Shown: positions 2,470-30,955 of the stretch, piece by piece
Numbering within the stretch: position 1 is the stretch's first letter
Layout of the letters: the number at the start of each line of letters is the position of its first letter
Source of the DNA: a virus
IMG/VR virus record: IMGVR_UViG_3300027733_000149
Location: 1-30,955 of that record
Direction: 5' to 3' (one strand)
Length of the DNA stretch: 30,955 nucleotides
The notes under the pieces: generated by a model
Told to the model about the DNA's origin: nothing
Databases searched by the model: none
Seen by the model: only the letters and a program-made list of their open reading frames with translations
Position numbers and translations under genes: made by a program

Positions 2470-2509
2470 TAACTCTAGTACTTGTTGCGCAAATCTAGTA
2501 GTTATAAGC
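2470..2509 (-). repeat. short attC-like site, distal end of array
   Basis: TAACTCTAG at the left pairs with CTAGTAGTTA at the right, leaving one bulged base, around a TTGCGCAA loop; the outer box is GTTATAAGC. It follows the last cassette gene and marks the boundary with the recombination operon. It is much shorter than the others. Confidence 0.5.
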
Positions 2510-2513
2510 CATT

Positions 2514-2738
2514 TTAGAGAAACACTCCGAACTTGACTGCAAAGTCCCACCATCCGAAGCATAACATAAAGCCTCTATGCCTTACATCTGTAAATGCTTC
2601 GTGATTGGTATTTATAAATAGTATTGTAGGTAAAACTGTTTTTTCAGGGTCGGCTTTATCTCTACCAACTTTGAAATAAAAACGGCTTATAACAGCACCT
2701 AACAAAAATTGGCGGCTTAGTGGTTTCTTGGAGTTCAT
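2514..2738 (-). CDS. cassette protein with attC-derived leader
   Basis: 74 residues from the ATG at 2738 (MNSKKPLSRQFLLGAVISRF). An upstream ATG at 2792 lies inside an attC arm and is less likely. The chosen ATG sits in the loop of the attC-like site 2685-2817, and the frame runs through the right arm: GTTATAAGC of the box is read as V-I-S. The body (FKVGRDKADPE to the C-terminal GWWDFAVKFG) is the cassette's own part and resembles small conserved proteins of Bacteroidota phages. Function unknown. Confidence 0.6.
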   Translation of the reverse strand: MNSKKPLSRQFLLGAVISRFYFKVGRDKADPEKTVLPTILFINTNHEAFTDVRHRGFMLCFGWWDFAVKFGVFL

Positions 2739-2817
2739 TGCTTCGTATTTAATTTTGTTTATAATTGAAATTTTGTGCTTCGTAATCGCCAACTTCGGTT
2801 AGCTGCAAAACGTTAGT
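2685..2817 (-). repeat. attC-like site with start codon in its loop
   Basis: The left arm (2685-2714, TTATAAC box, then CACCTAAC and ATTGGCGG) pairs with the right arm (2786-2817, CGCCAACTTCGGTTAGCTGC and an outer GTTAGTG box). The loop is about 70 bases and holds the ATG of the next cassette gene. Bases 2685-2709 are identical to 10400-10424 at the other end of the array. Confidence 0.75.
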
Positions 2818-2835
2818 GGTAATAAAAATAAAACA

Positions 2836-3081
2836 TTAGCATCTTCGTTCCACAAATTCATTAAATACCTTTTCACATTTTTCAATACCGAACTGGAAGA
2901 CCAAAAATCCAATTTTAAGGTTTATATAAAGTTCTTCTATTTCATCATCTTTAAGTTCTTTCATCTTATCATTTGATAAAATTGGATTTTCTTCTATCCA
3001 TTCAATAACCCTACTATCATAATAATGAATTTGTAGTGGATTATATTTTCTAATTTCGTATTCTATTAAAGTTCTTTCCAT
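2836..3081 (-). CDS. cassette protein, 81 aa, unknown
   Basis: Start chosen at MERTLIEYEIRKYNPLQIHY (3081), because the longer frame to 3108 runs into the attC box at 3100-3106. Acidic, helical protein with a central KMKELKDDEIEELYINLK segment; no known domain seen. It forms one cassette with the site 2685-2817 downstream. Similar small acidic proteins are frequent in phage accessory regions. Confidence 0.6.
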   Translation of the reverse strand: MERTLIEYEIRKYNPLQIHYYDSRVIEWIEENPILSNDKMKELKDDEIEELYINLKIGFLVFQFGIEKCEKVFNEFVERRC

Positions 3082-3099
3082 AGTTTTATTTTTACATAC

Positions 3100-3194
3100 A
3101 CATAACAAAGTGTATAAGTAATGTGGCTAATAAATTTATCTATAAGTTGAAAGTGTGTGCAAAGCCACACTACTCATACACTCAACCGTTAGCA
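3100..3194 (-). repeat. attC-like site
   Basis: ACATAAC plus AGTGTATAAGTAATGTGGC at the left pairs with GCCACACTACTCATACACT and CCGTTAGCA at the right, about 24 paired bases, with an unpaired spacer next to the boxes. It shares the GTGTATAAG/CATACAC arm with sites 3467-3560 and 5711-5808 and with the half-site 7977-8005. Confidence 0.85.
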
Positions 3195-3200
3195 GTAAGT

Positions 3201-3440
3201 TTAAGAAACGTCATCGCTTTTGGTTTTACATTCATGTTTTATTAAACCACAATAAATCCATTCAATAAACCGTCCTAAATATCCTATACATTCTCCACAT
3301 TTTTGACAACAATAACTTGGATATTTAGGGCTGAACGTTTTGCAATTTATACACAATGAATTTGGTTTTCTTAATTCACAAACTACACCCATTTCTGGAT
3401 TTATTGCTTTATTGTGTTTACATCTTAATTCTCTTTTCAT
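3201..3440 (-). CDS. cysteine-rich cassette protein
   Basis: 79 residues with ten cysteines, including CINCKTF and YCCQKCGECIG, suggesting one or two zinc-binding clusters. The N-terminus MKRELRCKHNKAINPEMG begins right after the site 3467-3560. It is a single-gene cassette followed by the site 3100-3194. Function unknown; zinc-dependent binding is an inference from the cysteine spacing. Confidence 0.6.
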   Translation of the reverse strand: MKRELRCKHNKAINPEMGVVCELRKPNSLCINCKTFSPKYPSYCCQKCGECIGYLGRFIEWIYCGLIKHECKTKSDDVS

Positions 3441-3466
3441 ATTTAATTTTGTTATAAAAACCTACT

Positions 3467-3560
3467 GCTAACAAAGTGTATAGCAAATAAGCCATTAAAG
3501 TTTATACTATATTGATAATGTTGAGTGTGGCTTACTTGCCATACACTCACCGTTATAAGC
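3467..3560 (-). repeat. attC-like site
   Basis: GCTAACAAAGTGTATAGCAA...TAAGCCA pairs with TGGCTTACTTGCCATACACT...CCGTTATAAGC. The arms pair over about 22 bases, with two extra bases on one side beside the box: the asymmetry expected of attC rather than of a perfect terminator hairpin. No T-run follows it. Confidence 0.87.
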
Positions 3561-3569
3561 AAATAAAAA

Positions 3570-3809
3570 TTACTCGCTTTTCGTTTCATCAACAACTTTT
3601 TGGTTTCTAATTTCGCCTTCCAACTCCATCATTTCCATAAAGCAATCTCTTAAATGCGAGTGCATTTTACCTAACTCAAATCCATAAACAACATCATCTT
3701 TTTCGGAGTTACATAAATCTCTAACCAAATCCGCATTTAATTCAAACATTCTTTTGTAATGCTCAATTTGTTCTAACTGTTCTTGTGTAATCAAATATTC
3801 TCGTTCCAT
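3570..3809 (-). CDS. cassette protein, 79 aa, unknown
   Basis: Start placed at MEREYLITQEQLEQIEHYKR (3809); the longer frame to 3848 enters the attC site 3828-3959. The product is helical and acidic, probably a short coiled coil (EQLEQIEHYKRMFELN, then FMEMMELEGEIRNQK). No enzyme motif. Single-gene cassette followed by the site 3467-3560. Confidence 0.6.
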   Translation of the reverse strand: MEREYLITQEQLEQIEHYKRMFELNADLVRDLCNSEKDDVVYGFELGKMHSHLRDCFMEMMELEGEIRNQKVVDETKSE

Positions 3810-3827
3810 AATCCGTAATTTTATCAG

Positions 3828-3959
3828 CTTATAACATACGCTATACAAAAGTGGGGCTGTGTGCCAAATTTGTACAGTAGTACTTCTAATTTACTTTTTA
3901 GGTAAGTAAGGGTTCAGTACTTCTAAGTCCCCACCTTCGTATAGCGTCAGCCGTTATAA
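3828..3959 (-). repeat. attC-like site (VCR-like arms)
   Basis: CTTATAAC then TACGCTATAC...AGTGGGG at the left pairs with CCCCAC...GTATAGCGTCAGCCGTTATAA at the right, with a two-base mismatch and a four-base unpaired patch. The long loop (about 75 bases) has no open frame. Only 15 bases separate it from the next site. Confidence 0.85.
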
Positions 3960-3974
3960 AACATTAAAACGATT

Positions 3975-4103
3975 TTATAACAACAAATATAAATAATAGC
4001 CAAGACAAGATTCTATACTTGTATTGAGTTCAGCTCCCGAAGTCCTACCTCTACTTAGATATTCAGCCACAAGGCTACTATTTATATTTGCGTTACGTTA
4101 TAA
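3975..4103 (-). repeat. attC-like site
   Basis: TTATAAC AACAAATATAAATAATAGCC pairs with GGCTACTATTTATATTTGCG and GTTATAA, about 20 paired bases. Together with 3828-3959 it forms two adjacent sites with no gene between, i.e. an ORF-less cassette. It shares the AACAAATAT arm with 7053-7139 and 8346-8400. Confidence 0.87.
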
Positions 4104-4110
4104 GTAATTG

Positions 4111-4428
4111 CTACATTCCGTACATTTCAAGAACTATACCTTTTGAACGACATAATTCAGCCCACGCTTCTTGACAGTAATTTCTACCGTGTAATGCGTT
4201 ATTAAACTCGTGGCACAATTCCGTTACCAACAATTCAATATCTTGGGATAAGTCAATTTGATTTTCATATTGATACCTTCCGCGTAATATGCCATCTTCG
4301 TATAAGTGCAATTTGCTTTTTGCTCTTGTTTCTAAATCTACATAGCATTGGTCTTTTTCGCTATTGTAGTGCATTGATGTAGAAATTCCTTTCTTTGCCA
4401 ACGCTTTCATTATGTCTTGTATTTCCAT
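4111..4428 (-). CDS. cassette protein, 105 aa, unknown
   Basis: MEIQDIMKALAKKGISTSMH start, a central acidic segment (DLSQDIELLVTELCHEFNNA) and a C-terminal QEAWAELCRSKGIVLEMYGM. It has a compact mixed alpha/beta look with no catalytic motif that I can name. It fits cleanly between attC-like sites 4463-4518 and 3975-4103, so it is a one-gene cassette. A reading frame of 105 codons makes it one of the surer cassette genes. Confidence 0.7.
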   Translation of the reverse strand: MEIQDIMKALAKKGISTSMHYNSEKDQCYVDLETRAKSKLHLYEDGILRGRYQYENQIDLSQDIELLVTELCHEFNNALHGRNYCQEAWAELCRSKGIVLEMYGM

Positions 4429-4462
4429 TTTAATTAAGTTTATCGTTAATAATCCGCAACTA

Positions 4463-4518
4463 CTTATAACAGCACATTGGCGGCATTAAAACGACCGCCA
4501 ATCTGCGAATCGTTATAG
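4463..4518 (-). repeat. compact attC-like site
   Basis: TTATAAC AGCACATTGGCGG, loop CATTAAAACGA, then CCGCCAAT CTGCGAATC GTTATAG. Eight perfectly paired bases (ATTGGCGG) close a short loop, with an asymmetric unpaired spacer between stem and boxes. At 56 bases this is close to the classical short attC size. Confidence 0.88.
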
Positions 4519-4519
4519 G

Positions 4520-4699
4520 TCAGTTTGCCCACCAAGTTCCGCACTTTTTGCAAGCGTATGAATTTTTAGTGAGCGTTGTTCTATATCCTTTAGCATTACA
4601 GGTAGGGCAAACCGAACCTATAACATTGTGTTTATTCAATGCCGAGTTCATCGGTTGCTCAACTTTTTTGCTTTTAAATAATTTTTGTATCCAGTTCAT
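4520..4699 (-). CDS. small zinc-ribbon cassette protein, 59 aa
   Basis: Frame MNWIQKLFKSKKVEQ...VCPTCNAKGYR...YACKKCGTWWAN. Two CxxC knuckles about 19 residues apart form a likely zinc ribbon, after a basic N-terminal helix. Its 5' end overlaps the end of the upstream gene (4674-5075) by 26 bases and no attC lies between them, so the two probably travel as a two-gene cassette. Its stop codon lies next to the box of the site 4463-4518. It ends in TGA. Confidence 0.65.
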   Translation of the reverse strand: MNWIQKLFKSKKVEQPMNSALNKHNVIGSVCPTCNAKGYRTTLTKNSYACKKCGTWWAN

Positions 4700-5075
4700 A
4701 ATTTCGTTCTTTTAATTCGGCACTATCTACATCAAAGTTTGACTTAAAGATTTCTAATACTGCCTTTACTTCTTCTGTTGAAGGTATTTTTGAACTGCTC
4801 TTTTCAGCGTTTAATTTTACTCTACTTATGAAATTATCTTCTGTTATAACACTTCCTTTTTGTATCATTGGAGTATCTACTGTCCACCGTGTCAAACTTT
4901 CTCTAACGTAATCAACTGTATTGTCATTATTAACTCGACAAATACATCCATATATCTTCATTGACATTCCATCAAACTCAACGAAATTCCCTACTTGTAA
5001 AACATCGCCTAACACTGCATTGGAAATATTGGGGCTTTCGTTCTTACTTTCAGCTTTTGTGCTTTCTACTTTCAT
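4674..5075 (-). CDS. cassette protein with probable leader, 133 aa
   Basis: Begins MKVESTKAESKNESPNIS at 5075, inside the presumed loop of the weak attC-like site 5007-5090; the box at 5007-5013 is read within the frame (V-L-G-D about residue 22). The body starts near DVLQVGNFVEFDGMSMKIYG, a small beta-rich-looking domain, and ends in a helical tail. No known domain. If the leader is an attC product, the original cassette protein is about 110 residues. Confidence 0.6.
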   Translation of the reverse strand: MKVESTKAESKNESPNISNAVLGDVLQVGNFVEFDGMSMKIYGCICRVNNDNTVDYVRESLTRWTVDTPMIQKGSVITEDNFISRVKLNAEKSSSKIPSTEEVKAVLEIFKSNFDVDSAELKERNYELDTKII

Positions 5076-5090
5076 TTGTAAACGTTAGGC
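5007..5090 (-). repeat. weak attC-like site
   Basis: Boxes GCCTAAC (5007-5013) and GTTAGGC (5084-5090) are perfect inverted copies and sit where an attC is expected, but the arms between them pair poorly (roughly half of 18 bases). The ATG of the next gene (5075) lies between the boxes. Confidence 0.4.
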
Positions 5091-5366
5091 ACAATATTGA
5101 ATAACCTTGTACCTATATTTAGCCATTTGTTTATTTGGATGGTATTCAACTGACCAACAATCTTTATCAGTCCAATAACCTTTTGATTCACAAAACTCTT
5201 TTGCTTCTTGTTCGGTTAATTTATAACCAAATGGTTTATATCCATCGGCATTGCGATTTTCCATTGAATCTATCCATCCTCTTTCGATAAGGAAAATACT
5301 GTGCCTAACAACAGGTATATCCAATTGCTTGGTTTGTGCTTCTAATTTACTTTCTTCTGTTTTCAT
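5085..5366 (-). CDS. cassette protein with attC-derived leader, 93 aa
   Basis: Starts MKTEESKLEAQTKQLD at 5366, in the loop of the attC-like site 5303-5432. The frame passes through the site's terminal box, where GTTAGGCAC is read as V-R-H. The cassette body has an alternative start at MENRNADGYKPFGYK and continues ...LTEQEAKEFCESKGYW to VEYHPNKQMAKYRYKVIQYC. This aromatic, basic domain recurs in small phage proteins; function unknown. Which start is used decides whether the leader is made. Confidence 0.6.
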   Translation of the reverse strand: MKTEESKLEAQTKQLDIPVVRHSIFLIERGWIDSMENRNADGYKPFGYKLTEQEAKEFCESKGYWTDKDCWSVEYHPNKQMAKYRYKVIQYCA

Positions 5367-5432
5367 ACTTTTGTTCTTTTTATTAAATTTGTACTAATTT
5401 TACGCAACTATATATACCTGCGACCGTTATGT
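5303..5432 (-). repeat. attC-like site with start codon in its loop
   Basis: GCCTAAC AACAGGTATATCCAATTGC at the left pairs with GCAACTATATATACCTGCGACC and GTTATGT at the right: about 18 paired bases. The 75-base loop contains the ATG (5366) of the following gene. The left box, GTTAGGC on the minus strand, is in frame with that gene. Confidence 0.82.
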
Positions 5433-5449
5433 GTAATAAAAAACTAAAA

Positions 5450-5674
5450 TTAAACTACTGCAACTTTATACAGTGTTCTATTATTGAAGTTTTCTTTTGA
5501 AAAACCTTTTATTACATCATTATTTTTGTGTGAAATTGTTTCAATGTCATCTATGTTGTTTTTGATGTCATTCAATGTTTTACTCAATCTACTCCAGTAA
5601 ATTTGTTCACATAAAAATATACCAGTCCATTGTAGGTTTTTCAAAATAAAATCTGTTAATTTAGTTCGTTTCAT
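5450..5674 (-). CDS. cassette protein, 74 aa, unknown
   Basis: MKRTKLTDFILKNLQWTGIF start followed by a helical central part (SRLSKTLNDIKNNIDDIETI) and a short basic tail. The hydrophobic stretch at residues 15-25 is too short for a membrane segment. No recognised family. Lies between attC-like sites 5711-5808 and 5303-5432, one gene per cassette. Confidence 0.55.
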   Translation of the reverse strand: MKRTKLTDFILKNLQWTGIFLCEQIYWSRLSKTLNDIKNNIDDIETISHKNNDVIKGFSKENFNNRTLYKVAVV

Positions 5675-5710
5675 ATATTTAAAAGTTTAATTTTTTTACG
5701 TTTTTTACAT

Positions 5711-5808
5711 ACTTATAACAAGGTGTATAAGAAAGTTTTTTACAAAGGTAGGTATAAAATTTGATATTTCCAAATAAAAACCTTCTCATACACCCAATCG
5801 TTATGTGC
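5711..5808 (-). repeat. attC-like site
   Basis: ACTTATAAC AAGGTGTATAAGAAAG...TTTTT pairs with AAAAACCTTCTCATACACC CAATC GTTATGTGC, about 21 paired bases with unpaired bases near the box. Same arm family as 3100-3194 and 3467-3560. Confidence 0.87.
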
Positions 5809-6092
5809 TATTTAACTGCACCGTATTTTAACTTACCATTCAAGTAATCTCTAACATCAAATGTTATATTATCTGCTTTAATTGTTGCACTGCAATGTTC
5901 AGTTGATGTTATGGTATCACCACATTGTGATATGTATGTTACAAATATCCTTGTTGCATGATGCGGTGCAACACTTAAAACTTTTTTATATGTATAACAT
6001 TTTGGTTCATTCCCACATGAAAATAAACAGCACATAACAAGCAATATAAAAAATGCCTTAGTTACTGCTAAAATTGGAGTTTTTGTTTTCAT
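5808..6092 (-). CDS. cassette-encoded lipoprotein
   Basis: 94 residues. The N-terminus has a basic start, a hydrophobic core (AFFILLVMCC) and a lipobox LFSC followed by GNEP, i.e. a signal peptide for lipid attachment at about Cys 26. The mature part is about 70 residues with three further cysteines and a threonine-rich beta-like segment. In the host it should end up on the periplasmic side of a membrane. A superinfection-exclusion or surface role is possible, but nothing specific shows it. Confidence 0.65.
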   Translation of the reverse strand: MKTKTPILAVTKAFFILLVMCCLFSCGNEPKCYTYKKVLSVAPHHATRIFVTYISQCGDTITSTEHCSATIKADNITFDVRDYLNGKLKYGAVK

Positions 6093-6123
6093 AATAAATT
6101 TATTTTTAAATTAATAATTTTTT

Positions 6124-6163
6124 ACTTTTAAATCGGCACTTCTTATATTGCCGTCCGTTAGCA
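6124..6163 (-). repeat. short degenerate attC-like site
   Basis: CGGCA / TGCCG closes a ten-base loop and the right box is CCGTTAGCA, but the left box reads TTTTAAAT in place of an RYYYAAC. It lies exactly between two cassette genes. Probably a decayed site that recombines poorly or not at all. Confidence 0.4.
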
Positions 6164-6170
6164 GTAATAA

Positions 6171-6362
6171 CTACCACTTATCTACATCAGATAAATCAAG
6201 TTCCTTTTTGGTTAAATGTGATACTACTTTTACACCTGTTCCCATTCCGTAAGGAGTAAACACATAATCATAATGTCCATATTCTCCAAAAAGGTCTTTA
6301 ATTTTATCTTGCCACTCTTTTAATCTTTTTTCTTGGTCTTCGTCTAATTTAAAGTTTGTCAT
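6171..6362 (-). CDS. cassette protein, 63 aa, unknown
   Basis: MTNFKLDEDQEKRLKEWQDK start: a charged helix followed by an aromatic/glycine segment (YGHYDYVFTPYGMGTGVKVV) and an acidic tail DLSDVDKW. The pattern resembles small phage proteins that carry a helix plus a beta hairpin. No family assigned. It starts 17 bases after the box of the site 6379-6470. Confidence 0.6.
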   Translation of the reverse strand: MTNFKLDEDQEKRLKEWQDKIKDLFGEYGHYDYVFTPYGMGTGVKVVSHLTKKELDLSDVDKW

Positions 6363-6378
6363 ATTAATCCGTTACTAC

Positions 6379-6470
6379 TGCTAACCGCGTATATACAAGA
6401 TACGCCTACAAGCATTTGTTTATAATTTGAAATTTCGTTTAGGCGTACCTCGTATATACGCAAATTTAAA
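6379..6470 (-). repeat. attC-like site, one box degenerate
   Basis: GCTAAC CGCGTATATACAAGATACGCCTA pairs with TAGGCGTACCTCGTATATACGC over about 22 bases with two mismatches, one of the longest stems in the array. The right-hand outer box reads AAATTTAAAC rather than GTT, while the left one (GTTAGC on the minus strand) is intact, so the recombining end may still work. Confidence 0.8.
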
Positions 6471-6678
6471 CACCCGCCACCGCACTAAGTAGTTCATCAA
6501 TCACCGTATCAACTTGTTTACCCGCTTGTCCCTTGTTATCATTCAACATACGTTTAAAGAACCCTGCATATATTACATCGGTCAGTATGTTTTCTTTGTT
6601 CACTTCGGGGTAGCCAAATTGTTTCAAGTTGCTTACTCCTGCTGTCAATAGTTTGTCTTTGATTTGTTCGTTTGTCAT
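6466..6678 (-). CDS. cassette protein, 70 aa, conserved phage type
   Basis: MTNEQIKDKLLTAGVSNLKQ start, centre ENILTDVIYAGFFKRMLND, end VDTVIDELLSAVAGV. An all-helical small protein of a type that I recall from Bacteroidota phages, without assigned function. Its GTT-TAA end lies inside the degenerate box of the following site, so cassette and gene end coincide. A-rich leader before the ATG. Confidence 0.65.
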   Translation of the reverse strand: MTNEQIKDKLLTAGVSNLKQFGYPEVNKENILTDVIYAGFFKRMLNDNKGQAGKQVDTVIDELLSAVAGV

Positions 6679-6770
6679 TTTATTTTAGTTTTAAAGTTTA
6701 TCAATTCCTCCCCGCAAAAGGGTGTTTATATTATACTCTGTTTTTCAATTTAAGTTTAGTTTAATAAACG

Positions 6771-6796
6771 TTTCATATTTGCAACCGTTATATTCA
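6771..6796 (-). repeat. attC-like half-site
   Basis: CATATTTGCAACCGTTATATTC matches the right arm and box of sites 7053-7139 and 8346-8400, but no matching left arm (an AACAAATATG-like sequence) is found between 6679 and 6770. It looks like one surviving half of a site. Confidence 0.5.
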
Positions 6797-6808
6797 ATAA
6801 CTTAAAAT

Positions 6809-7030
6809 TCATGGTTTTAATGGACCTAAAAATGAAGCATTTTCATAATATGGATGATGTATTGGTTCGGAATCCCATAACGCATTTAATGATTTAATCT
6901 TTGCTCTTTCTTCATCACCTGATACGACAGCAAATTCTATATCACCATCTTTAAGTTTTATCTTGTATAATCCATCACCATTAGGTTTATCAGACCAAGA
7001 ATTTTCAGTTTTAAATTCAATTTTTTCCAT
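6809..7030 (-). CDS. cassette protein, 73 aa, unknown
   Basis: MEKIEFKTENSWSDKPNGDG start, then alternating beta-like and charged segments (GLYKIKLKDGDIEFAVVSGD) and an aromatic C-terminal part (IHHPYYENASFLGPLKP). The layout recalls small single-domain proteins of the DUF551 neighbourhood (tryptophan early, PLKP late) but is not a clear member. Ends with TGA. Confidence 0.6.
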   Translation of the reverse strand: MEKIEFKTENSWSDKPNGDGLYKIKLKDGDIEFAVVSGDEERAKIKSLNALWDSEPIHHPYYENASFLGPLKP

Positions 7031-7052
7031 ATGTATAAATTTTAAGTTACTA

Positions 7053-7139
7053 AATATAACAACAAATATAAGAAATAAATCTTACTTTGTCTATTTTTTA
7101 ATGAAAAGATTTACTTCTCATATTTGCTGATGTTACCTG
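7053..7139 (-). repeat. attC-like site
   Basis: AATATAAC AACAAATATAAGAAATAAATCTT pairs with AAGATTTACTTCTCATATTTGCTGAT and GTTACCT, about 20 paired bases, with unpaired spacer bases beside the boxes. Same arm family as 3975-4103 and 8346-8400. Confidence 0.87.
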
Positions 7140-7144
7140 CAAGG

Positions 7145-7507
7145 CTACCTTGACACTTCGATAATAGCATCAGGATATTCTTTACAGGCTTCTAAATACT
7201 TTTCGACAAAAGGAACAAAATGCTCATACATTCCCCACCCATTAGGAGAATTGAAAGTTTCAAAATGTTCAGGTCTTGCTTTTAAATCAGCTAATCCTTT
7301 TTCAAGTAATTCAACTATTTCACTTGCCTTTGTTTTTCCAATTTCCTCTGGTCGCCAAAGGGCTTCATAAATTCCTGCTTCACCTGCCATTTTACCTAAG
7401 TTATGGGTAATGTTTGCATCGTAAACGGTTTCATCTTCTTCTGTTAATGTTTTGCCAGCATCGTAGCTAATCCATTTTTTTCGTGTTAAATAAACACCTA
7501 AACTCAT
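7145..7507 (-). CDS. conserved phage protein (MSLGVYL family)
   Basis: 120 residues. The sequence shows MSLGVYLTRKK at the start, ITHNLGKMAGEAGIYEALWR in the middle, SPNGWGMYEHFVPFV and a C-terminal YPDAIIEVSR. Proteins with these blocks are widespread in unrelated tailed phages; from memory no function is assigned. Here it is the cargo of a single-gene cassette bounded by sites 7547-7671 and 7053-7139, which suggests that such widespread small phage genes can move as cassettes. Confidence 0.8.
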   Translation of the reverse strand: MSLGVYLTRKKWISYDAGKTLTEEDETVYDANITHNLGKMAGEAGIYEALWRPEEIGKTKASEIVELLEKGLADLKARPEHFETFNSPNGWGMYEHFVPFVEKYLEACKEYPDAIIEVSR

Positions 7508-7546
7508 TTTGTTCCTTTTTTAAATTCTGCTGAATAATCCGCCCAG

Positions 7547-7671
7547 CAGGTAACAGCGGTTTGGCAAAAAAGCCGTTAAGTATTTCAAATGAACATTTGT
7601 GCTAAACATCAATATTCGTGTTCCAAATTAGCATCCGTTTCGGCTTCTTTGCCAACCCGCAAACGTTAGCA
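7547..7671 (-). repeat. attC-like site
   Basis: AGGTAACA GCGGTTTGGCAAAAAAGCCG pairs with CGGCTTCTTTGCCAACCCGC AAAC GTTAGCAATC, about 19 paired bases with one mismatch. The loop is about 65 bases and has no minus-strand start codon followed by a usable frame. Confidence 0.87.
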
Positions 7672-7908
7672 ATCATTTTGTTCCCTACGCACGAAGAACT
7701 CGTCATAAGTTTCTTTAGCGTGTTTTTCGGGGTAATAATCCAAGTGGTTGTCATTTCTGCCCTGAACATACATTTTACACATTTGTTCCTTTTCTTTTGG
7801 TAGCAATTGCCAAATTTTTTCCTTCATATTAGTATGTGTGGGATGATAATTTTTGTCATCAAATTCCTTGCACCATTCTAACAATTGATTTAATACTGTT
7901 TTTTCCAT
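7666..7908 (-). CDS. cassette protein, 80 aa, unknown
   Basis: Start set at MEKTVLNQLLEWCKEFDDKN (7908); the longer frame to 7977 has an untypical N-terminus and enters the half-site region. C-terminal part YPEKHAKETYDEFFVRREQN resembles the end of a family of small Bacteroidota phage proteins with a helical N-terminal EWCKEF-like segment. No function known. Its 3' end overlaps the attC box of 7547-7671. Confidence 0.62.
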   Translation of the reverse strand: MEKTVLNQLLEWCKEFDDKNYHPTHTNMKEKIWQLLPKEKEQMCKMYVQGRNDNHLDYYPEKHAKETYDEFFVRREQNDC

Positions 7909-7976
7909 ATTTATAATTTTAGTTTCAAAATCCACGCAAACAAAACGAAGTGCTAATTTAAAAGTTTCTACAAGCA

Positions 7977-8005
7977 AACCTTCTCATACACCCGACCGTT
8001 ATGCA
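7977..8005 (-). repeat. attC-like half-site
   Basis: ACCTTCTCATACACCCGACCGTTATGCAC is nearly identical to the right arm of site 5711-5808 (CCTTCTCATACACCCAATCGTTATGTGC) but the partner arm with GGTGTATAAG is missing to its left. Likely remnant of a recombined or deleted site. Confidence 0.55.
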
Positions 8006-8019
8006 CAATTAATTGCTTT

Positions 8020-8313
8020 TTAAGTATTCATCAACGCAATCGTTACTTGAATGTCCTTCGCAGTTAAAATCATATCATACTCGATAAATATGACATCACC
8101 TTCTCGTTCATCAAAGGACTCTAGTCTATTATACATATATTTTAAATCTTTATCATATTCTAATAAAAATTCTTGATATTGATAAATCATAACAGACACA
8201 TGATTTCCTTCGCCAGCAAGTATAGATTCAGCACCTTCAAATGAACATAATTTAGCAAAACCATCTGTTATGCTTTTCATATATTCTTCGTATTCCTTTT
8301 GATATTCTCTCAT
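8020..8313 (-). CDS. cassette protein, 97 aa, unknown
   Basis: MREYQKEYEEYMKSITDGFA start; acidic and helical at first, then IYQYQEFLLEYDKDLKYMYN and a C-terminal DVIFIEYDMILTAKDIQVTI that looks like two beta strands. No known domain. It follows site 8346-8400 with a normal A-rich leader and is followed only by an attC half-site, so it may no longer be separable from the next cassette. Confidence 0.6.
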   Translation of the reverse strand: MREYQKEYEEYMKSITDGFAKLCSFEGAESILAGEGNHVSVMIYQYQEFLLEYDKDLKYMYNRLESFDEREGDVIFIEYDMILTAKDIQVTIALMNT

Positions 8314-8345
8314 TTTTTTATTTGTATAAAAATTTTAAAACTAAA

Positions 8346-8400
8346 ACATAACAACAAATAAAACACATTAAAACGATGTTTTATTTGCAACCGTTAGCGG
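8346..8400 (-). repeat. compact attC-like site
   Basis: ACATAAC AACAAATAAAACA, loop CATTAAAACGA, then TGTTTTATTTGCAACC GTTAGCG: 11-13 paired bases closing a short loop. It shares the exact 11-base loop with site 4463-4518. Confidence 0.88.
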
Positions 8401-8407
8401 TAATTGG

Positions 8408-8674
8408 TCACACTAACTTCCATTGCCAGTCAAAAGCACTTTCACTCTTGCATTGGCAGCAAAATATATCATATGCAGGTCTCCAACTTGTTAAATGTAT
8501 TGTTCCGTCAGGTGCTTTTGCTAATAGTTCCACATCATTCGGTGGTGGTTCTTCATTAACATACATCCAACTACCGCTAACACCAAATAAACCCAATAAA
8601 AGTGTCTGTGCGTAATCGGTAGTTATTTCGTCATATTTTAGCTGTTCTGCTATTTTTAAAATTTGGTCTTTCAT
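8408..8674 (-). CDS. DUF551-like cassette protein with attC-derived leader
   Basis: 88 residues. The leader MKDQILKIAEQLKYDEITTD...LLLGLFGVSG is encoded by the loop and arm of the site 8575-8708: GTTAGCGG of the box is read V-S-G. The body begins with SWMYVNEEPPPNDVELLAKA, the W..V.E..P..D..VL opening of DUF551-type domains, and ends in two tryptophans. Leaders of the form ILxIAEQL...LFGVSGS precede unrelated bodies in Bacteroidota phage proteins, from memory, which supports leader swapping. Function of the body unknown. Confidence 0.7.
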   Translation of the reverse strand: MKDQILKIAEQLKYDEITTDYAQTLLLGLFGVSGSWMYVNEEPPPNDVELLAKAPDGTIHLTSWRPAYDIFCCQCKSESAFDWQWKLV

Positions 8675-8708
8675 ATCTTTTACTGTGTTTATTTGTAACC
8701 GTTATCGG
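8575..8708 (-). repeat. attC-like site with start codon in its loop
   Basis: CGCTAACACC AAATAAACCCAATAAAAG at the left pairs with CTTTTACTGTGTTTATTTGTAACC and GTTATCG at the right, about 18 paired bases with few mismatches. The ATG of the next cassette gene (8674) lies in the loop, and the left arm is coding (LLGLFGVSG). Confidence 0.82.
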
Positions 8709-8713
8709 CAACC

Positions 8714-9118
8714 CTAATACGACTTACCGTGTTTATGTGGGCGACTTGCATTATATCTCATTTTTGCCTTAATATGACTTTCAATATCAATGCCTTTAAA
8801 TGCACATAAATCAAGCACACGAATAACTACATCGGCCAATTCATCTTCAAAAGTGTTTTTAACTGAATGTTCAAACTCGTTTTTAAAAGCTTCCTCGCCA
8901 CAAAATGAAGCTCCATAATTGGCATCTGCCAAGCCTTTGATAAACCACTTTTTAGATTCGTCAATGTTTTCGTAATACCATTTTTTTCTATCCGCTTCCA
9001 ATGCTTCGGAAACTTCTGAATGTATAAGGCAAAGCATTTCGCCAATGTTTTTTTCACTATCAAAAAATCCTTTTGATTTGGCATTTTCGTGAATTTTTGT
9101 TGCTAATTCGTTTAACAT
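8714..9118 (-). CDS. MazG-like nucleotide pyrophosphohydrolase
   Basis: 134 residues. Two metal-binding helices typical of the all-alpha NTP pyrophosphatase superfamily are visible: SEVSEALEADRKKW (about residues 34-47; ExxE-type) and EDELADVVIRVLDLCAF (about residues 91-107; ExxD). Such phage enzymes hydrolyse (d)NTPs or (p)ppGpp-like nucleotides to pyrophosphate and monophosphate. It is the clearest enzyme in the array and is bounded by attC-like sites 9170-9262 and 8575-8708. Substrate is not determined by the sequence. Confidence 0.85.
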   Translation of the reverse strand: MLNELATKIHENAKSKGFFDSEKNIGEMLCLIHSEVSEALEADRKKWYYENIDESKKWFIKGLADANYGASFCGEEAFKNEFEHSVKNTFEDELADVVIRVLDLCAFKGIDIESHIKAKMRYNASRPHKHGKSY

Positions 9119-9169
9119 TTTTGTATTTGTTTTTAAGTTTATAATTCATCATTACGAAAGAAGGGCAGC

Positions 9170-9262
9170 CGATAACACGTAATATAAAAAATTGGCTATC
9201 AGCGTTTGTGGTAACGTGAAAGGTTCATACAAGCCAACTTTTCATATTACCAACCGTTATAG
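9170..9262 (-). repeat. attC-like site
   Basis: CGATAACA CGTAATATAAAAAATTGGCT pairs with AGCCAACTTTTCATATTACC AACC GTTATAG, about 19 paired bases, loop about 28 bases. Unpaired bases beside the box are on one side only. Confidence 0.88.
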
Positions 9263-9275
9263 AGAATAAAACAAA

Positions 9276-9497
9276 CTACTTACCTGCTTTACCTCTTTCA
9301 TATGCTTCTGAGATATGCCACATTATTTTCTGCTTCAACCAATCTTTTGTTTCTTTATTTATAATTTTGAGTTTTTCATCAAGTTCTTTAAATGTATCAT
9401 CTACAACAGAACCGTTTGTTTTACTCTCTATAACAACAGATATATTCAAGTTTTCTGTTGCTTCGTTGAAACTTTTTATGTGTCTTTTATCTTTCAT
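9276..9497 (-). CDS. cassette protein with attC-derived leader, 73 aa
   Basis: The start MKDKRHIKSFNEATENLN lies in the loop of the site 9428-9563 and the next residues ISVVIES are encoded by its arm and box (GTTATAGAG read V-I-E). Leaders of the type (K)SFNE..ENLNIS occur, from memory, before unrelated bodies in Bacteroidota phage proteins. The body after the box is helical (FKELDEKLKIINKETKDWLK, then AYERGKAGK) with no known function. Confidence 0.66.
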   Translation of the reverse strand: MKDKRHIKSFNEATENLNISVVIESKTNGSVVDDTFKELDEKLKIINKETKDWLKQKIMWHISEAYERGKAGK

Positions 9498-29834: not shown

Positions 29835-30605
29835 ATGGCAAAAAACAGAACAAAATTATCTAAAGAGGAACATGAAGACGTTTCTAATTGGGACAAAGAG
29901 CGCACGAATTTACTTTCGGCAAAAATTATGTCCAATCGAATTGACATCAAATGTCGATCTAATGCACAAAAGGAAGTTCTTCGAGCAATTGACGAAAAAG
30001 TAATTTCAGTAATAATTGGCCCACCAGGAACAGGTAAAACCTATCTCTCATGTGCAAAGGCATTAAAATTTATTAAAGAAGAATCGATGATCTATCACAA
30101 GATCGTCTTAATTAAGTCGGTGAATGTGCCAAAGGACGAGGAGATCGGTTACCTAAAAGGTACGCTAGAAGAAAAGATGGAAATGTACATGTACCCGTTC
30201 ATCAGTAACTTTCATAAAGTTATTGGAAAAGCAACAACTGAACAACTGAAGAGCTCAGGAATAATTGAAATTTTACCAATTAAATTTGCACTAGGAGTAA
30301 CTCTAGATGACTCAATAATAATCGTAGATGAAGCTCAGCAAATATCAAAAGACAACCTACGAACGCTAATCACTCGAATAGGAACTAACTCAAAAATGAT
30401 TTTCCTAGGTGATATCAAACAGAAGTCAGTTAATAAAAGAGAGAAAAGTGCTCTTGAAATTCTAATAGAGCATTTTAACAATATTCCTGAAATAGGAATT
30501 GTCAAATTGGGTCGAGAGGATATTGTTCGACACCCAATTATTAAAAAGCTTGAAGATATCTTTGATAGTATTGAAGAGTCTGAAAAACTAAATGGTAATA
30601 AATAA
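29835..30605 (+). CDS. phoH: PhoH-like ATPase
   Basis: 256 residues. Walker A IIGPPGTGKTYLS (about residues 60-72) and Walker B SIIIVDEAQQIS (about 156-167) with flanking LIKSVNVPKDEEIGYLKGTL and KMIFLGDIKQKSVNKR are the standard blocks of the PhoH family. Common auxiliary gene of large phages; a helicase or RNA-related ATPase role is suspected but not settled. Same strand as its neighbours. Confidence 0.9.
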   Translation: MAKNRTKLSKEEHEDVSNWDKERTNLLSAKIMSNRIDIKCRSNAQKEVLRAIDEKVISVIIGPPGTGKTYLSCAKALKFIKEESMIYHKIVLIKSVNVPKDEEIGYLKGTLEEKMEMYMYPFISNFHKVIGKATTEQLKSSGIIEILPIKFALGVTLDDSIIIVDEAQQISKDNLRTLITRIGTNSKMIFLGDIKQKSVNKREKSALEILIEHFNNIPEIGIVKLGREDIVRHPIIKKLEDIFDSIEESEKLNGNK

Positions 30606-30610
30606 CAATA

Positions 30611-30955
30611 ATGAAGCATATCCGAAAATTTATCCTAGAGTCAAAGTCAACTGTCGAGACTGAGTTTGAAGTAATTAAAAGTTTACACAAACTTGGACTA
30701 GTTGACGATTCTGAACTTAAAGTATATACTTATATCGCTTCAGGAAGCACTGGAGATCTCAATTTACAAGGTACTCCAATCCAGAGTCTGCCAGCTGGGC
30801 TACGAGTTGACGGAAATCTCAATTTAAGTGATACTCCAATCCAGAGTCTGCCAGCTGATTTACATGTTGGCGGATATCTCGATTTAAGTGATACTCCAAT
30901 CCAGAGTCTGCCAGCTGGGCTACGAGTTGGTGGAAGTCTCGATTTAATCCGTACT
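30611..30955 (+). CDS. leucine-rich-repeat-like protein (partial, 3' end off the window)
   Basis: Starts MKHIRKFILESKSTVETEFE (targeting-like, I-L-E before Ser) and runs open to the window end (115 codons). From about residue 54 it is made of 20-residue repeats of the form L-x-L-S-D-T-P-I-Q-S-L-P-A-G-L-R-V-G-G-x, the LxLxxTxIxxLP pattern of bacterial LRRs. Probably a solenoid for protein binding, maybe virion-associated. Total length unknown. Confidence 0.75.
   Translation, partial: MKHIRKFILESKSTVETEFEVIKSLHKLGLVDDSELKVYTYIASGSTGDLNLQGTPIQSLPAGLRVDGNLNLSDTPIQSLPADLHVGGYLDLSDTPIQSLPAGLRVGGSLDLIRT
30772..30955 (+). repeat. 60-base tandem repeats in an LRR coding region
   Basis: ACTCCAATCCAGAGTCTGCC recurs at about 30774, 30834 and 30894 with only a few differences per unit; each unit encodes one 20-residue LRR. 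More units probably follow beyond the window. Such near-identical repeats can expand or contract by slippage or recombination. Confidence 0.85.

Follow-up and report, generated by a model that had tools for sequence, protein, structure and literature searches.

In an integron cassette, the first bases after the G^TT crossover point pair with the R'' box of the cassette's own attC site, since R' is complete only in the circle. The IntI insertion, together with the extrahelical bases of attC that it reads, is held to be what enables an integron integrase to act on a folded single strand in the correct orientation; dif-like sites are the substrates of Xer proteins. According to the accessible text of Bouvier 2009, the pairing between the start of a cassette and its own R'' reaches 9–11 nt in most cassettes. 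The closest systems described in phages are the CALINs, notably those of Polaribacter phage P12002L, in which site attC2 is recombined by IntI1 and the attC sites show divergent directions (Qi 2023, PMC9892861); the available part of that report describes no dedicated phage integrase, systematic gene reversal or empty module. Likewise, in the accessible portions of two studies, ORF-less or gene-less cassettes with attC are known from bacterial integrons (PMC11014356, PMC6557892). Both ORF-less cassettes and phage CALINs are therefore already known; the integron-like system to which the array described here belongs differs from canonical integrons in three tested features at once, and no description of a phage-borne reversed integron-like system was found in open-licence PubMed Central.

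The window, i.e., the whole stretch of DNA that was analysed (30,955 nucleotides), is a 31-kb viral record (IMGVR_UViG_3300027733_000149) whose nearest named phages are Polaribacter P12002L and Cellulophaga phi39:1. P12002L shares its site family, with loop CATTAAAACGA at positions 30009–30055 and the genes on the other strand. A site caller with free spacer lengths detected 14 attC-like sites in an array that spans positions 2690–9259 (Table 1) and one more outside the array, versus a mean of 0.5 per Markov shuffle (10 shuffles of the array length). The geometry of these sites is nearly fixed, i.e., YAAC, approx. 2 unpaired nucleotides, a stem, a variable loop, the stem partner, approx. 5 unpaired nucleotides and GTT; the right spacer exceeds the left one by 3 nt in 10 of the 14 array sites, and the spacers measure exactly 2 and 5 nt in nine of them. 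The bottom strand was the more stable one in all five sites that were folded. At the left end of the array, GTTATAAGCC (2501–2510) is the exact reverse complement of GGCTTATAAC (2684–2693) at the first attC-like site, which gives 10 nt of pairing with R''. This end has no TATA, and a search of the window for the pattern TATATA...GTT gave no match there; therefore, it could be a worn attI. Just to the left of the array (454–1523) there are genes for a NinB/Orf-like recombination mediator and for a lambda-exonuclease/RecE-like nuclease, and at the right end of the record (30752–30947) three direct repeats of 60 b encode a repeat protein that is cut by the contig end.

Table 1. Features of the cassette array, in positions of the window.
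Feature	Position	Strand	Basis and recurrence
attI-like left end of array (weak), ctagta followed by GTTATAAGCC	2491–2503	+	read from sequence
attC-like site 1	2690–2815	+	caller; related hairpin 75–78% in integrase-bearing L226, L238, L268
attC-like site 2	3103–3191	+	caller and folding; 93% in L014 with other neighbours; 96% in integrase-bearing L236
attC-like site 3	3469–3555	+	caller
gene of cassette left of doublet, 79 aa, function unassigned	3570–3809	-	cassette body 3551–3836
attC-like site 4, left half of doublet	3829–3959	+	caller and folding; TTATAAC 3829–3835, GTTATAA 3953–3959
empty cassette body GTTATAAAA-CATTAAAACGA-TTTTATAAC (linker)	3953–3981	+	its exact pattern counted 45 times over 119 representative loci
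ORF-less cassette of 144 b, from the crossover TT of site 4 to the crossover G of site 5	3954–4097	+	longest ORF 31 aa
attC-like site 5, right half of doublet	3975–4103	+	caller and folding; TTATAAC 3975–3981, GTTATAA 4097–4103
gene of cassette right of doublet, 105 aa, PHROG 11295, function unassigned	4111–4428	-	recurrence of body in relatives
attC-like site 6, short, loop CATTAAAACGA	4467–4515	+	caller; hairpin alone 96% in L118
attC-like site 7	5306–5429	+	caller
attC-like site 8	5716–5803	+	caller and folding; 93% in integrase-bearing L256
attC-like site 9	6035–6160	+	caller; 89% in integrase-bearing L257
attC-like hairpin, degenerate right box, not passed by caller	6377–6464	+	recurrence in relatives: 92–95% in L008, L097, L134, L135; 94–96% in integrase-bearing L228, L229, L250
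attC-like site 10	7057–7135	+	caller; 88% in integrase-bearing L246, L287
attC-like site 11	7551–7668	+	caller and folding
attC-like site 12, short, loop CATTAAAACGA	8349–8396	+	caller; 96% in integrase-bearing L276, 99% in L284
attC-like site 13, overlaps start of its gene	8578–8704	+	caller
attC-like site 14, last accepted by caller	9173–9259	+	caller

The two attC-like palindromes that a preliminary description of this DNA had located at 3828–3959 and 3975–4103 are the fourth and fifth of the 14 array sites; their positions were right and both of them fold. As single-stranded DNA, the bottom (minus) strand of site 4 reaches −22.7 kcal/mol (z −5.13) and that of site 5 −17.4 kcal/mol (z −3.75), and in neither case was any of 200 dinucleotide shuffles as good. 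In agreement with the claim that no gene lies between the two crossover boxes, the longest ORF of the 144-b cassette has 31 aa on the minus strand and 2 aa on the plus strand (ATG, GTG and TTG starts), and no conserved small ORF was found between the sites. The definition of an ORF-less cassette in the accessible text of PMC11014356 uses a limit of 70 aa, and the stretch between the two crossover points, with 31 aa at most, falls within it. Judging from its sequence, 3954–4097 is very probably a cassette without an ORF, part of the array of an integron-like system that belongs to Bacteroidota phages and for which we infer recombination.

The spacing of 15 bases between the two sites is correct, but these bases are more than a plain spacer; AAAACATTAAAACGATTTT together with the boxes on either side forms a separate hairpin, with a perfect stem of 9 bp around CATTAAAACGA. 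This loop occurs three times in the window, versus 0.03 expected, and is the loop of the short sites 6 and 12 too. The 19-b core of the empty body is present in at least 119 viral stretches, and also in 66 genome stretches, many of them from Flavobacteriaceae. The left end of the linker (GTTAnnnn, CATT) pairs with its right end (AAAACGA, nnnnTAAC); judged against the gene-bearing cassettes, the linker appears as the remainder of a cassette once the gene is gone. It is similar to the gene-less cassettes of bacteria in that attC is present without a gene, and differs from them in that the phage body consists of two pairing ends around an 11-nt loop and is common to many phage contigs. Hairpins with the CATTAAAACGA loop are also present in bacterial chromosomes of the Flavobacteriaceae (L142–L206; Algibacter, Lacinutrix and Aquimarina), often after a TTTAACG box.

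The preliminary description suggested looking in related phages for the same doublet or for a version with a gene in between. The doublet as a whole is not conserved: the arms of site 4 and the empty body are found together only in L055, there with a different second hairpin, and a 21-mer from the loop of site 5 had no exact match elsewhere in the viral contigs. Similarly, no match to the doublet was detected among plasmids, and the sole match in named phages was one of 46 b in Cellulophaga phage phi39:1. In contrast, the gene-containing version does exist, since the hairpin family of site 4 is present at 72–87% in five integrase-bearing relatives (L238, L273, L241, L250 and L251), where it precedes a longer module.

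After a CG^TT box, every cassette opens with TTRnnn and carries a single short minus-strand gene (or, in the doublet, no gene); an attC-like hairpin of its own closes it, upstream of the start codon of the gene. Because the first bases of the cassette complement the outer part of its own R'' box, attC is complete only once the circle is free. Among the loci retrieved with the loop motif or with two cassette proteins, pairing of at least 8 nt between R' and the R'' of the next site, i.e., across the gene, was detected in 97 of 146 modules (66.4%); the rate was 2.1% inside single hairpins (242 tested) and 3.0% for pairs drawn at random. Of the 13 modules of the window, eight, the empty one among them, show this pairing and five fail to do so. 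An independent set, found through the integrase described below, gave 191 of 249 modules with complementarity between the cassette start and its own R'', versus 12 of 314 within the hairpin and 3.9% for random pairs; here the boxes read AACA in 313 and CGTT in 309 of 316 sites. The ORFs run against attC in 126 of 131 modules of the first set and in 225 of 230 of the second.

A comparison of 12 pairs of homologous modules revealed that the hairpin at the 5' side of the gene (the right one) is common to six pairs, in five of which the other hairpin differs; both hairpins differ in six pairs, and the left hairpin alone is shared in none. Shared segments extend from R' to R' in six cases and from R'' to R'' in none. 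From these results, it follows that the cassette is the gene plus the right-hand hairpin, with the gene reversed. A full decoupling of gene and site was discarded as the main reading, given that the gene and its 5'-side hairpin are usually transferred together, and is considered below as a rival. Regarding the cassettes without a gene, one with the same empty body as that of the window (L046) is 98.1% identical in L019 and 99.3% identical in L087, bounded at R' on both sides and with different neighbours, and a second one, with a near-identical loop, recurs in L131, L014 and L073. The L046, L019 and L087 copies indicate that ORF-less cassettes of this build do move without a gene; for the doublet of the window itself, no mobile copy with other neighbours was present in the sequences searched. 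Such a cassette would move in the same way as the gene cassettes, given that GTTATAAAA-CATTAAAACGA-TTTTATAAC, its body, contributes nothing but the pair of complementary ends. The early proposal that what moves is the site rather than the gene agrees with these ORF-less copies (98–99% identity), but it is too strong, since most cassettes here consist of gene and site.

The cassette bodies at both sides of the doublet also recur. That of the left gene (3551–3836) was found at 95–97% in five other viral contigs, and its 5' hairpin differs in L131 and L133; the body of the right gene (4111–4428) is 91–95% identical in L007, L008 and L009, between other hairpins or none. Relatives of this last gene with 73–78% aa identity (L010 and L011) have no hairpin adjoining the gene. 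In other phages the gene bodies 3552–3835 and 4097–4470 have different hairpins on both sides, at 94–97%, and therefore the sites have been re-paired with genes. The gene-only homologies around the doublet break at R'' as well as at R', and plain recombination at R' leaves the R'' breaks unexplained. These breaks could be accounted for if hairpins and gene bodies were exchanged separately, with crossovers at R'' (top strand) and at R' (bottom strand), so that the doublet would be an intermediate of a site swap; crossovers at both boxes would be expected because the sites are devoid of the extrahelical bases that fix strand choice. The two flanking bodies agree with this explanation, as does the presence of the site 4 hairpin on other genes in L055, L238, L273, L251 and L250, with the break between TAAC and A; furthermore, the accessible text of Bouvier 2009 indicates that co-inverting the extrahelical bases and the central spacer moves recombination to R''. 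Nevertheless, in six of the 12 homologous pairs the gene keeps its 5'-side hairpin and in none of the 12 does it keep only the other one, only 2 of 4,331 HSPs are inverted, when top-by-bottom recombination would invert the units, and the breaks at the gene side are mostly diffuse, 25–80 b off R'' (114 left ends). A separate exchange of hairpins and genes is, for these reasons, a possible but rather doubtful explanation.

In the integrase-found set, 117 right ends of shared segments lie within 8 b of R' and 5 at R'', as site-specific recombination at G^TT would leave them, and the left, gene-side ends are diffuse, with 55 at R'' and 114 at 25–80 b beyond it. On the basis of these alignments, attC and the 5' leader are common to different genes. 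The re-pairing may have come about by strand-indifferent recombination, by slippage over the hairpins or by homologous exchange. In the array orientation, L131 (5770–5856) and L133 (8264–8350) show the same hairpin on the same gene with the loop inverted, which looks like a flip of the palindrome.

Each gene has its hairpin in the 5' leader, and the G-T pairs of the minus strand would be G-U in RNA. These observations would fit with hairpins that serve the minus-strand transcripts as terminators, processing sites or leader structures, i.e., as RNA elements, the shuffling being ordinary phage mosaicism by homologous recombination; the homology often reaches 25–80 b into the leader, and the genes for a NinB/Orf-like protein and for an exonuclease adjoin the array. 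We regard this explanation as extremely improbable, given that it does not predict a pairing that occurs across the gene rather than within the hairpin, nor the sharp ends of the segments at R' (117 within 8 b versus 5 at R''), nor the linkage to an integrase and an attI-like site that is described next.

In the window record, a fragment, the array stands without an integrase, with neither a tyrosine recombinase nor a match to PF00589, and its sites are of a divergent attC type. No tyrosine recombinase was found in the first 11 relative records, many of which are fragments. Among 42 larger viral records that have the loop or a relative of a cassette gene, again with many fragments, a tyrosine recombinase is present in 11 and absent from 31. 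The best six recombinases all have approx. 266 aa, and the loop is present around five of them (L220, L222, L223, L224 and L225). The alignment of these six integrases led to 236 related viral loci, of which 80, chosen by the integrase alone, were analysed. In these 80 loci there are 352 sites in 317 kb on the array side of the integrase, versus 9 in 421 kb on the other side; at least two sites are present upstream of the integrase in 59 of the 63 loci that have at least 1 kb there, versus 0 of 63 in shuffles, and in 53 of 57 loci when six near-copies were left out. The GTT partner of the first R'' is located 32–93 b from the start codon of the integrase in 52 of 62 loci (42–60 b in 49 of the 52), and TATA precedes it at one fixed place in 52 of 52; the relatives have, then, an attI-like site next to the integrase, as canonical integrons do. 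The array of the window is tied to this larger system by its hairpins, which recur in integrase-bearing arrays, and by the complete cassette 7129–7563 (before site 11), 86% identical in the integrase-bearing phage array L235. In the proposed mechanism, the tyrosine recombinase of approx. 266 aa would fold the bottom strand of the hairpins and join them at R' to attI or to another attC, excising and inserting circular cassettes, in arrays that in the relatives begin at the attI-like site, approx. 50 b from the start codon of the recombinase.

The six phage integrases score 136.5–170.7 bits on TIGR02249, the integron integrase model, with a cut-off of 265; their best NCBIfam model is NF040815 (XerA_Arch), with 165–195 bits and a cut-off of 220. 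The alignment to IntI4 (2a3v) omits approx. 48 residues (query 173–208, chain 175–258), and the KGxKxR and HxxRH motifs are separated by 52–55 residues in 33 of 33 phage integrases, versus 99–100 in five IntI, 58–59 in 11 of 12 host relatives and 64–69 in six of seven Xer proteins. On the evidence of these spacings, the phage integrase is without the insertion specific to IntI. A structure model of middling quality (pLDDT 81, pTM 0.58, built with six sequences) had its best match in 5hxy (Z 19.0), tied with IntI4 2a3v (Z 18.7), given that differences in Z within 1 are ties. A tree built from 54 proteins places all 33 phage integrases in a single clade (100/100), apart from Xer proteins and host relatives; only two IntI are included, and therefore the joining point of this group is not fixed. 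The phage enzymes are thus similar to XerA-like tyrosine recombinases in their best NCBIfam model and best structural match, and differ from them in that the sampled clade groups apart and is tied to cassette arrays.

As a control, 12 canonical IntI loci from genomes of the host phylum were analysed with the same gap-tolerant caller as the phage set. These loci yielded 51 sites (six loci with at least two), 47 of them with a bulge in the left arm; the ORFs run along attC in 36 cases and against it in one (1/37), and pairing across the gene was present in 28 of 37 at a looser cut. Therefore, this method does detect the canonical orientation and the extrahelical base in loci that have them. With this caller, the 330 sites of the phage set have a left-arm bulge in 13 cases, a right-arm bulge in 107 and none in 210; the ORFs run against attC in 222 of 238 cases and along it in 16, and pairing was found in 183 of 240. 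The phage system shares with the canonical integron the integrase gene at one end of the array, the attI-like site near its start codon, the imperfect palindromes with R''/R' boxes (YAAC and GTT), the reconstitution of R' in the circle, and the better folding of the bottom strand. In contrast, the phage cassette genes run against attC, and therefore attC is at the 5' end of the gene and not at its 3' end; the sites are devoid of the extrahelical base on the R''-L'' arm (13/330 versus 47/51 in the control); and the integrase stays below the 265 bits of TIGR02249 and is without the family insertion. We regard the system as one that would work like an integron without being a member of the canonical family, given that three tested features differ at once.

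It could still be argued that these sites form a CALIN of ordinary host origin, i.e., that cassettes of canonical IntI integrons were captured and left without an integrase, as reported for phages by Qi 2023. Such sites or relatives of the cassettes are present without a tyrosine recombinase in the window, in the 11 records and in P12002L, this site family is carried by P12002L, which is among the phages with sites tested with IntI1, and 57 of 198 genomes sampled from the phylum of one host have IntI above the cut-off. Nevertheless, a host origin is very improbable when confronted with the left-arm bulge (13/330 in phage versus 47/51 in canonical sites), the ORFs against attC (222/238 versus 1/37), the partner integrase without the insertion (52–55 versus 99–100 residues between two motifs) and the sites that adjoin the phage integrase in 59 of 63 loci, from the 80 of 236 analysed. 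All of 17 host genomes match TIGR02249 weakly, with none above the cut-off, and the same is true for 14 of 14 controls; a host integrase near such sites was discarded, as the 12 loci around the best host matches hold no array and contain one stray site. The 57 of 198 genomes (G070–G264, sampled from the phylum of an Aquimarina genome) in which the integron integrase model scores above the cut-off are more than expected; in the available text of PMC9024848, a complete Bacteroidetes integron is reported only in Salinibacter.

With moderate confidence, we favour the view that this is a separate integron class native to Bacteroidota phages, with a small, insertion-less integrase, a bulge-less attC that serves as 5' leader, cassettes read toward the integrase, and ORF-less cassettes as portable sites that could be joined to new genes, i.e., a cassette birthplace. 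A large phage group that is without both the IntI insertion and the extrahelical bases, yet has attI, an array and the circle signature, would make the dependence on these features directly testable. The system would show phages that run their own cassette system, not phages that carry captured fragments, and its ORF-less cassettes, together with the sites that occur on different genes, are relevant to how genes come by an attC site, a question that is still open.

TAnnTTTG is the promoter box of Bacteroidota. On the gene strand it is not enriched within the hairpins (22 versus 26.6 in shuffles), and a promoter in the hairpin was discarded on this ground; it is somewhat enriched on the other strand of the hairpins (47 versus 28.0), there are 36 versus 19.6 in the 80 b on the gene side of R'', and one lies inside an arm of site 5. 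The preliminary description had considered the cassette either empty or regulatory; it is indeed ORF-less, but a regulatory RNA in the loop found no support. Rfam gave no matches in the whole window at gathering scores, one chance match and nothing meaningful in the doublet, and low-scoring matches only in two other ORF-less cassettes; ARAGORN detected no tRNA or tmRNA in the window. The loops of the ORF-less class were not more structured than shuffles (median folding z 0.07; 0.39 for the loop of site 5), and a structured RNA in the doublet was discarded as well. That the loop of site 5 harbours a promoter or a small structured RNA would be in line with the accessible text of PMC11014356, where gene-less Vibrio cassettes mostly have promoter activity, with the higher G+C of the loops of 17 cassettes of the ORF-less class (0.43 versus 0.27 in 100 others), and with the tRNA T-arm-like stretches of the cassette that recurs in L014, L073 and L131. 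Considering the folding of the loops, the Rfam and tRNA searches of the doublet and the counts of TAnnTTTG, a regulatory or RNA-coding cassette is nevertheless unlikely, and our guess is that the ORF-less cassette acts as a spare site that could be joined to a neighbouring gene. The recurring cassette of L014, L073 and L131 (approx. 155 b) has a loop with two hairpins similar to the T-arm of tRNA (GGTTCGATTCC and GGGTTCGACTCCC), and part of it matches the tmRNA model with 12.3 bits (E 0.0023 in a search of 191 b; gathering score 47). Another contig that carries these cassettes, L132, has an uninterrupted series of twelve tRNA genes and one tmRNA gene at positions 7736–9299.
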